Positions 3,008 to 22,478 of a stretch of DNA of 64,000 nucleotides are shown here, one piece after another (the stretch's first letter is position 1; each line of letters starts with the position of its first letter). The stretch is from positions 1-64,000 of the forward strand of contig CAIZNI010000027.1 of NCBI GenBank assembly GCA_903934295.1, in the 5' to 3' direction. A program made the translations under genes and the position numbers. This DNA is from an uncultured beta proteobacterium. GTDB lineage: Bacteria; Pseudomonadota; Gammaproteobacteria; Burkholderiales; Burkholderiaceae_E. The notes under the pieces are model-generated. The model worked only from the letters and a program-made list of their open reading frames with translations. It made no database searches and was not told where the DNA came from.

Positions 3008-3481
3008 GTGAACATCAATGCGACCTTGTTCGTCCAGATCGCCGTTTTCCTGGCGCTCTGGTGGTTTACCGCCAAGTTTGTCTGGCCGCCGATCATCAAG
3101 TCCCTCGATGAGCGCAGCAAGCGCATCGCCGACGGTCTGGCGGCTGCCGACAAGGCCAAAGCCGACCTGGCTTCGGCCGAGCGGCGCGTGGCCGACGAGC
3201 TCAAGAAGGCGCGCGATGGCGCGGCCGAAGTCCGTTCCGGCGCCGAGCGTCAGGCCGGTCAGGTCCTCGAAGAGGCGCGGGCGGAAGCCGGCCGAATCGT
3301 GACTGCCGCCAAGAAGGCTGCCGAAGAAGAAGCTGCCCTGGCCGCCCAGCGTGCCAAGGAACAGCTGCGTGAACAGGTCGCTCAGCTTGCGGTCGCCGGT
3401 GCCGAGCGCATCCTGCGTCGCGAGATCGATGCGAACCGTCATGCCGAGCTTCTGGGCAACCTGAAGAACGAACTGCACTAG
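3008..3481 (+). CDS. atpF: F1Fo ATP synthase subunit b
   Basis: 157 aa peripheral-stalk subunit. One N-terminal membrane helix (about 6-26, LFVQIAVFLALWWFTAKFVW) is followed by a long charged coiled coil rich in Ala, Glu, Lys and Arg. It starts with GTG at 3008, preceded by AAAGGAAG. Length matches the 156-residue family norm. It lies 41 nt after atpE and 10 nt before atpH. Confidence 0.94.
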   Translation: MNINATLFVQIAVFLALWWFTAKFVWPPIIKSLDERSKRIADGLAAADKAKADLASAERRVADELKKARDGAAEVRSGAERQAGQVLEEARAEAGRIVTAAKKAAEEEAALAAQRAKEQLREQVAQLAVAGAERILRREIDANRHAELLGNLKNELH

Positions 3482-15968: not shown

Positions 15969-17063
15969 ATGACCGCCGCCCCGAACGACACCTTCCTGCG
16001 CGCCCTGCGCCGGGAATCCACCGAGCACACCCCCGTCTGGCTGATGCGTCAGGCCGGCCGCTATCTGCCGGAATACAACGCGACCCGCGCCCGCGCCGGC
16101 AGCTTCTTGAACCTTTGCAAGAATCCGGAGCTGGCCTGCGAGGTCACCCTGCAGCCGCTCAAGCGCTATCCCCTGGACGCGGCCATCCTCTTCTCGGACA
16201 TCCTGACGGTACCCGATGCGATGGGGCTGGGCCTGTATTTCGCCGACGGCGAAGGTCCGCGCTTCGAGCGTCCGGTGCGCGATGAGGCGGCGGTGAGCCA
16301 GCTCGCGGTGCCCGATCCCAATGATTCGCTGCGCTATGTGATGGACGCGGTGCGCACCATCCGCGGGGCGCTGGGCGGCAGCGTCCCGCTGATCGGCTTC
16401 TCCGGCAGCCCGTTCACGCTGGCCTGCTACATGGTCGAGGGCGGGGGCAGCGACGACTTCCGCCGCATCAAGACCATGCTCTACAGCCGTCCCGACCTGC
16501 TGCACCGCATCCTCGAGGTCAACGCGCAGGCGGTGGCGGCCTATCTGAACGCCCAGATCGAGGCGGGCGCCCAGGTGGTCATGATCTTCGACTCCTGGGG
16601 CGGCGTGCTGGCGGATGCGGCTTTCCAGGAATTCTCGCTGGCCTATACCCGCAAGGTCCTGGCCGGTCTGAAACGGGATCGGGTGGAGAACGGCCAGTCG
16701 GTCCGGGTGCCGACCATCGTCTTCACCAAGGGCGGCGGGTTGTGGCTCGAATCGATCGCCGACAGCGGTGCCGACGCGGTGGGGGTCGACTGGACGGTGA
16801 ACCTGGCGCAGGCGCGCCAGCGCATCGGCGCGCGCTGCGCAATCCAGGGCAATCTCGATCCGATGTCCCTGATGGCCTCCCCCGACCAGGTGCGCGCCGA
16901 GGCCCGCAAGGTGCTCGACAGCTACGGCACGCCCGCCGCCGGCCACGGCCACGTCTTCAATCTCGGTCACGGCATCTCGCAGTTCACCCCGCCCGACAAC
17001 GTGCTGGCGCTGGTCGAGACCGTGCACCAGCACAGCCGCGAAATGCGCCGCCGCGGCGGTTAG
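15969..17063 (+). CDS. hemE: Uroporphyrinogen decarboxylase
   Basis: 364 aa. Converts uroporphyrinogen III to coproporphyrinogen III in haem synthesis. Both signatures are present: [15 protein letters not shown] near the N-terminus (substrate-binding Arg residues) and [16 protein letters not shown] in the middle. The C-terminal NLGHGI.Q motif is also present. Full length. Its 3' flank is the unusual 352-bp hemE-priA intergenic region. Confidence 0.96.
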
Positions 17064-17150
17064 CGCGCCCTCACTTCAGCGCTCAGCCAGCCCTGCTGTG
17101 AGCCGTCCCGGTGCCCCATAAAGGCTTTCGGGCGGACTGTGGTTTCGGAC

Positions 17151-17195
17151 TTATGCACACTTGACGACCGATGCCCAAGTGTGCATCCGGGTTTT
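17151..17195. promoter_or_regulatory. Inverted repeat joining two head-to-head DnaA-like boxes; possible hemE terminator
   Basis: ATGCACACTTG (17153-17163) and CAAGTGTGCAT (17176-17186) are a perfect 11-bp inverted repeat with a 12-bp spacer. TTATGCACA (17151-17159) overlaps the left arm and TGTGCATCC (17180-17188) the right. CCGGG and then five T (17191-17195... ) follow, so as RNA it could also be an intrinsic terminator for hemE, with the T tract displaced by about 5 nt from the stem. Confidence 0.45.
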
Positions 17196-17314
17196 TCGAT
17201 GTGCCTGGACCGGTTTTGCAAGTCATTGAAATATAGGGATATTTTCCTGTCGAAAAATCAGGCAACCGACCTCGGCTCAAGGACTGGCGCGGATTTCCGG
17301 GCAATCGGCAAAGG

Positions 17315-17335
17315 TTAACCACAGTTTTATCCACA
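17315..17335 (+). promoter_or_regulatory. Tandem DnaA boxes
   Basis: TTAACCACA (17315-17323) and TTATCCACA (17327-17335) are in the same orientation, 12 bp apart start to start, each followed by G. The second is the high-affinity consensus box. They end about 80 bp upstream of the priA start. Confidence 0.6.
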
Positions 17336-17415
17336 GGCCCTGTGAACGAATCGAAAATCTCTCGTTACTGCGTCGGCTTAGTGTCTGAACTTAAAGTAGT
17401 TTCGAGCTTGGCGGC

Positions 17416-19489
<2,074 letters not shown>

Positions 19490-22402: not shown

Positions 22403-22478
22403 GCGCCCGTAGCTCAGTGGATAGAGTACTGGCCTCCGAAGCCAGGGGTCGCTGGTTCGATCCCAGCCGGGCGCGCCA
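22403..22478 (+). tRNA. tRNA-Arg (anticodon CCG)
   Basis: 76 nt cloverleaf. The acceptor stem GCGCCCG pairs with CGGGCGC, with discriminator G and an encoded CCA (22476-22478). The D arm begins TAGCTCAGTGGATAGAG. The anticodon stem CTGGC/GCCAG encloses CTCCGAA, anticodon CCG, which reads CGG arginine codons. The T arm contains GGTTCGATCC. It stands alone between the cytochrome and PhoX genes. 22479-22694 downstream shows no gene. Confidence 0.97.

Follow-up and report, generated by a model that had tools for sequence, protein, structure and literature searches.

The window analyzed here, bases 1 to 64000 of contig C27, is a 64-kb stretch of a 4.62-Mb genome in 72 contigs. It holds an intergenic spacer between hemE and priA with a G+C content of 54%, against 70% across the window. 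The HemE of the window is 80% identical to HemE of a Quisquiliibacterium MAG, and the closest named HemE matches are mostly labelled Burkholderiales or Burkholderiaceae. The frame starting at 17416 and the frame at 17843-19489 both resemble parts of PriA, so we place a frameshift near 17843, either in the assembly or in the gene. The sole tRNA found in the window is a tRNA-Arg (CCG) at 22403-22478. The features of the locus are as follows.

15969-17063: hemE, left flank of the spacer
17064-17415, no strand: hemE-priA intergenic spacer, 352 bp
17151-17159, plus strand: distal DnaA box TTATGCACA, perfect; starts 176 bp before the start of box II
17153-17186, no strand: perfect 11-bp inverted repeat ATGCACACTTG/CAAGTGTGCAT, which takes in part of the distal box
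17211-17260, no strand: AT-rich stretch, overlapping the IHF-like site
17219-17231, plus strand: IHF-like site CAAGTCATTGAAA, two mismatches to TAAnnnnTTGATW; ends 83 bp before box III
17315-17323, plus strand: DARS-type box III TTAACCACA, one mismatch; starts 12 bp before the start of box II
17327-17335, plus strand: DARS-type box II TTATCCACA, perfect; 3 bp after box III
17341-17349, minus strand: DARS-type box I TCGTTCACA, two mismatches; inverted, 5 bp after box II
from 17416: priA, right flank of the spacer; frame apparently broken near 17843

A preliminary description of this DNA had reported two perfect DnaA boxes, a one-mismatch box, and partial boxes between hemE and priA, around a stretch with 33 A/T of 50. 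The boxes, the A/T count, and the two flanking genes were all confirmed. The weaker boxes, with two mismatches each, start at 17180, 17248, and 17341, and 17211-17260 shares the highest A/T content of any 50-bp stretch in the window. A T-rich tract follows the inverted repeat at 17153-17186, which is therefore possibly a hemE terminator.

Across the whole window, boxes with at most one mismatch are unremarkable (7 found versus 5.75 expected). The perfect box TTATNCACA occurs only 8 times in the 4.62-Mb genome, compared to 18 times for the pattern read backwards, and two of these eight sit in the spacer, 176 bp apart. In the dnaA region of the same genome, four boxes have a single mismatch (one lies upstream of dnaA, three follow the gene) and none is perfect.

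A check proposed in the preliminary description, the conservation of the boxes in the hemE-priA spacers of relatives, was run. A HemE search yielded 80 loci from Burkholderiales and other betaproteobacteria, or 81 with the window. The spacer could be measured in 71; 10 loci had no match to the N-terminal part of PriA downstream of hemE. A pair of DnaA boxes, each with at most one mismatch and 150 to 200 bp apart, was kept in 70 of the 71 spacers, the window included, with L059 as the sole measured spacer lacking such a pair. Two pairs were present in 12 of the 71. Among the 82 pairs in total, 66 were spaced 173 to 189 bp apart, and the commonest spacing was 176 bp (21/82). We judged the cluster to be real because the pair is kept in 70/71 spacers, and this was the decisive argument over chance.

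Tandem box pairs were seen in at least nine spacers (L015, L033, L034, L056, L058, L061, L066, L079, and L081), from Massilia, Herbaspirillum, Janthinobacterium, Noviherbaspirillum, and similar genera. The spacers of L022, L029, L037, L044, L047, and L074, several of them from Hydrogenophilales MAGs, are 1.2 to 1.3 kb long, and their box pair is confined to the last 300 bp. These long spacers may encode something else between hemE and the element.

A three-box core, an IHF-like site, and a second copy beside xseA

The primary papers on the DARS and datA sites of Escherichia coli are reportedly Fujimitsu 2009 and Nozaki 2009. In the passages of PMC5742627 that define them, DARS sites consist of boxes I to III, with the same spacing at both sites and with box I inverted relative to boxes II and III. 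Three boxes at this fixed spacing, with an inverted box I, were found at 17315-17349, where box III, a gap of 3 bp, box II, a gap of 5 bp, and box I carry three mismatches in total. This was the sole match to the layout in the whole 64-kb window with up to five mismatches allowed. The same pattern was used to scan the regions of DARS1, DARS2, datA, and oriC in E. coli. It returned one site with two mismatches in the bioD-uvrB spacer at 0.81 Mb and one with three mismatches upstream of mutH (MG1655) at 2.97 Mb, as well as a weaker match (five mismatches) 316 bp from the latter. By layout and by map position, as given in the same part of PMC5742627, these two sites were assigned as DARS1 and DARS2. 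The E. coli datA and oriC regions gave no match to the layout with up to six mismatches.

Across the measured spacers, the core was present with at most six mismatches in 54/71, compared to 1 of 1420 shuffles. Box I had 0, 1, 2, 3, or 4 mismatches in 9, 22, 17, 3, and 3 of these 54 spacers, respectively, and thus 0 to 2 in 48 of them; that of Cupriavidus necator has three. When box II was placed by the distal pair alone and other offsets were then scored, the best plus-strand offset was −12, with a mean mismatch of 1.84 (background, 5.78; standard deviation, 0.68), and the best minus-strand offset was +14, with a mean mismatch of 3.19 (background, 5.76; standard deviation, 0.52). The remaining 17 of the 71 spacers had no passing core. 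In 15 of these, among them that of Cupriavidus sp. 2SB (L062), box III (at most two mismatches) and box II (at most one) are present with no box I in place.

We scored the IHF-like site against the consensus TAAnnnnTTGATW, taken from the relevant part of PMC8682772. A plus-strand match with no or one mismatch within 150 bp upstream of the core was found in 44 of the 54 core-bearing spacers (2.6 expected), and the other 10 have a match with two mismatches. The best match lies 82 to 86 bp before box III in 44/54 spacers, or in 48/54 if ties are broken the other way, versus 1.2 expected. The site thus stands at a fixed distance on the box III side, as at DARS2, the window's own site having two mismatches.

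These distances bear on a fallback in the preliminary description, that DnaA control or titration takes place at the site. Regulation involving DnaA comes close to the reading that we prefer below. A passive titration site, merely holding DnaA, would fit the clustering of perfect boxes in a box-poor genome, but titration needs no fixed spacing, and here constraint is seen in the 3-bp and 5-bp gaps as well as in the distances to the IHF site and the distal box. We consider passive titration very unlikely.

The core is not confined to the spacer. A strict core, with at most two mismatches to the 20 fixed bases, is present in 126/150 genomes of the order (reversed control, 0/150) and in 159/185 genomes of the class (reversed control, 1/185), and 72 of the 150 genomes of the order have more than one. 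A comparison of 77 box-pair rows with 76 core rows covered 53 box pairs in genomes with core rows, and in 39 of these pairs, the window's included, the second box is box II of a core. We also examined 20 loci with a loose box pair away from hemE, 8 kb each. Fifteen (L085 to L099) have a core, and the five without one (L100 to L104) were set aside. In L085 to L087 the core lies beside priA with hemE elsewhere, while the 12 other loci, from seven genomes, have neither hemE nor priA within 8 kb. Neighbors at those 12 loci include parE, a TatD-family nuclease gene, fabF, and mtnA.

Twenty second cores away from hemE were then picked by hand among the matches listed, and 19 passed scoring (L219 failed). 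In 15 of the 19, the adjacent gene belongs to the same protein cluster, and the only member of it that was scanned proved to be xseA (481 bits versus a cutoff of 180). Nine neighbors on the opposite side form a second protein cluster, of which two scanned members, one of them from L091, resemble TolQ/ExbB with scores below the curated cutoffs. L091 is probably an xseA-type copy as well. The window's genome has such a copy of its own.

L229 (G000:C40), 3018-3052: second DARS-like core, three mismatches, adjoining an xseA homologue

This xseA homologue is 56% identical to the cluster member used as the query, and box II of the C40 core is one of the genome's eight perfect DnaA boxes. The copy has an IHF-like site with two mismatches 83 bp before the core and another, slightly better one with a single mismatch at 69 bp. 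Its distal box, at 175 bp, is weak (two mismatches).

The distribution of the core speaks to whether the boxes serve a neighboring gene. A DnaA-controlled priA promoter, or a hemE terminator region, would tune replication restart to the DnaA level. The element is upstream of priA in all 71 measured spacers, priA accompanies it in L085 to L087, and the terminator-like hairpin overlaps the distal box. Against such a role stand the 12 loci with neither gene, the conserved second copy beside xseA, and the finding that no sigma-70-like promoter was detected within 17040-17440. We regard this explanation as quite unlikely.

GC skew around the element

hemE flanks the alphaproteobacterial origin in Caulobacter and Rickettsia, and the preliminary description had drawn that parallel in proposing an origin-like region. 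On this proposal, the DnaA boxes and an AT-rich unwinding stretch beside hemE would form the chromosomal origin. The spacer does share a hemE neighbor and DnaA boxes with the alphaproteobacterial hemE-linked origin, and the box pair, the AT-rich stretch, and the IHF-like site together look origin-like; 17211-17260, the AT-rich stretch, coincides with the IHF-like site. In several genomes, the element is near dnaA or parS (for parS, in single genomes among the matches listed). The parallel with hemE fails, as the core is also found next to priA without hemE and at loci without either gene. Unlike the alphaproteobacterial origin, moreover, the element shows no skew switch in relatives.

Skew was examined in nine relatives at a scale of 12 to 20 kb; the window's own genome, in its 72 contigs, has dnaA on a contig of 13 kb. 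A sustained minus-to-plus switch at the element was found in none of the nine (0/9), and the skew signal was strong in four. In G254, with dnaA at 0.45 kb and the box pair at 24.4 kb, the three stretches sampled between 14 and 74 kb to the left of the contig start had negative skew, and all 4-kb pieces between 0 and 80 kb were positive. In G307, from the window's family, dnaA lies at 653.7 kb and the core at 735.5 kb. Skew there was negative at 620 to 660 kb, reached +0.022 at 660 to 680 kb, and was about +0.1 farther on; the values flanking the element were +0.137 and +0.074. A single stretch at 600 kb was also positive. G268 (dnaA at 0.4 kb, parS at 24 to 33 kb, and the box pair at 335.6 kb) had a skew of −0.059 at 0 to 20 kb and positive values in every stretch from 40 kb, including +0.058 to one side of the pair and +0.041 to the other. 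The hemE-adjacent core of G233, 1.56 Mb from dnaA, had −0.111 and −0.118 on its sides, and both sides of dnaA were positive. With no switch at the core or at dnaA, the origin of G233 is therefore at neither.

The weaker cases G226 and G248 showed no flip at the element; first skew attempts were noisy, and skew at four-fold sites split by gene strand was of little help for these two genomes. G274 has a step from −0.013 to +0.036 at the element on the 5-kb scale, a point in favor of an origin there, but a similar step lies 20 kb away and the 20-kb values stay unflipped at the element. In N. aerium (G337), no flip was found anywhere sampled, which is informative only in that nothing flips at the element.

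Chromosome 1 of C. necator UYPR2.512 shows a weak sign change at 80 to 90 kb, between L236 and L237, which is about 100 kb from the element and 70 to 80 kb from dnaA and so argues against an origin at the element. This chromosome also carries two perfect boxes 183 bp apart at 69.1 to 69.3 kb. Its transition echoes that of Cupriavidus metallidurans CH34, which is placed about 90 kb from dnaA in the pertinent section of PMC2864759. The CH34 transition can be counted in favor of an origin here, since it is described in that section as next to a 213-nucleotide stretch with three perfect boxes, which may be the hemE-priA spacer.

Among the nine genomes, a good core is present in G307, G233, G274, G226, and N. 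aerium. G254 and G248 have no box I and G268 has no strict core at hemE, so in these three the skew test bears on the box pair only. We also stacked loci across genomes. For the 54 spacers flanked by 6 kb or more on each side, skew on the right minus skew on the left was +0.002 and positive in 25/54, whereas for 20 dnaA loci it was +0.055 and positive in 18/20. The dnaA means were −0.055 on the left and 0.000 on the right, so dnaA itself gives no clean switch, a caveat on the test. As the right side averages zero, dnaA is near the switch, not at it, in many genomes. A stack of four-fold sites over 71 spacers showed no sign change at the spacer. Skew in the window itself is ambiguous: to the left of the spacer it is near zero, from there to about 43 kb it is weakly positive for the most part, and farther right it is mixed.

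An origin at hemE-priA was thus rejected on GC skew in the relatives and, with two or more cores in 72/150 genomes also against it, seems highly improbable to us. The preliminary description had named a skew minimum elsewhere, together with loss of the boxes in relatives, as the outcome that would speak against its proposal. The former was observed in the relatives; the boxes, by contrast, are conserved.

Comparison with the DARS and datA sites of E. coli

Like E. coli DARS2, the element has the core III-3-II-5-I, is intergenic, and is apparently not the origin. As with the DARS sites, it is noncoding and appears distinct from oriC, judging from its intergenic position and the nine relatives with no sustained skew switch. 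Its IHF-like site has the same orientation as IBS2 of DARS2 and is likewise on the box III side, at 83 to 86 bp from the core here and 74 bp at DARS2, where the distance is about one helical turn less. A 10-bp shift keeps the same helix face, and in E. coli a 10-bp shift of the IHF site away from the core was better tolerated than a 5-bp shift, as the results in PMC4245941 indicate. Unlike DARS2, the element also has a distal DnaA box, which points the same way as box II, and it differs in its neighbors and in its variable position. DARS1 shares the core as well, with two mismatches in total versus three in the window. It differs in that the element has a conserved IHF-like site and the description of DARS1 in PMC5742627 mentions none.

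We think that the spacer probably carries a betaproteobacterial DARS-type element that regenerates ATP-DnaA, not a replication origin. The element most likely acts on the nucleotide state of DnaA, with reactivation as the likeliest action. Regulation of this state would explain why the core and its distance from the IHF site are fixed, why the genome has two copies, and why the element can occur apart from hemE and priA. By analogy with E. coli, ADP-DnaA would bind boxes III, II, and I, and the molecules on boxes II and I would meet head to head across the 5 bp, which would loosen ADP. DnaA freed of ADP would take up ATP. IHF bending the DNA 83 bp upstream, together with DnaA on the distal box, would gate ADP release in the cell cycle. 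DnaA and IHF binding, ADP release, and timing at the element are all inferred from E. coli.

The weak points of a DARS-type assignment are the two mismatches in each of the window's box I and IHF-like site, the relatives without box I, and Fis. E. coli DARS2 requires Fis, whereas a search of the window's genome for HTH_8 gave seven matches, in open frames of 263 to 610 amino acids, with no visible stand-alone Fis among them. The shortest of these frames reads by eye as a response regulator. DARS1 is described in part of PMC5742627 as active in vitro without added factors. Also against a DARS-type assignment, the distal box, the IHF-like site, and box III are spaced as in datA, which acts in the opposite sense.

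Part of the spacer also has a datA-like spacing. In the window, the distal box, the IHF-like site, and box III point in one direction, with 68 bp from the distal box to the IHF-like site (start to start) and 83 bp from there to box III. In E. coli datA (glyY-queG spacer), box 2, the IBS, and box 3 also point in one direction, at 65 and 84 bp; we assigned the datA box numbers from the description in PMC5742627. Thus, two boxes in the same direction flank an IHF site at fixed intervals in both, and passages of PMC5742627 and PMC4585315 call these intervals functionally important for datA. Box 7 of datA is described as essential in the same part of PMC5742627. We identified it with the box that lies 3 bp upstream of box 2, as this choice gives the published span of 183 bp. 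There is no counterpart of this low-affinity box in the element; at the corresponding offset, the window has six mismatches and the mean mismatch over 77 units is 6.04 of 8. For this reason, we did not file the element as datA.

A datA-type site, at which IHF bending would join ATP-DnaA on the distal box and box III so that ATP is hydrolyzed, would account for these directions and near-datA intervals. The relatives without box I retain the arm of distal box, IHF site, and box III, and in several relatives no more than about 100 kb separates the element from dnaA or parS (parS among the matches listed). Besides the missing box 7, an inverted box I spaced 5 bp from box II is characteristic of DARS, and the E. 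coli datA region gave no core. We find a datA-type site unlikely.

Since the arm repeats the datA spacing, we also entertained a dual on/off switch. A single element would do the work of both datA and DARS2, which are distinct sites in E. coli, and would switch DnaA in either direction. Genomes would often carry two such switches, at hemE-priA and at xseA, and the two E. coli sites may descend from a combined element of this kind. During one phase, with IHF bound, the arm would hydrolyze DnaA-bound ATP; during another, ADP would be released by the III-II-I core. This is a speculative model that we put forward only tentatively. If the datA-like arm is functional, it would show how two opposite E. 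coli controls could join in one 200-bp site.

To our knowledge, DnaA ATP/ADP recycling has been little tested outside E. coli. A recognizable element that can be sought at hemE-priA and at xseA makes such recycling testable across betaproteobacteria. It also carries a warning, as origin finders based on DnaA boxes could take such an element for oriC. In the titles and abstracts of the open-licence papers searched, we found no paper describing an element of this kind at hemE-priA or xseA. The occurrence of DARS beyond E. coli is in itself no new finding, given earlier reports of its conservation: a section of one review (PMC5742627) has DARS2 spacing conserved in beta- and gammaproteobacterial species near E. 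coli, part of another (PMC10380432) has DARS-like sequences in many proteobacteria, and a 2014 paper (PMC4245941) reports, in the portion concerned, conservation of the DARS2 core in gammaproteobacterial relatives of E. coli. The E. coli DARS sites are placed mid-replichore in the relevant text of PMC5742627, whereas the position of the betaproteobacterial element is variable, at distances from dnaA between 23 kb and 1.56 Mb in the genomes examined, which counts against the DARS-type reading.
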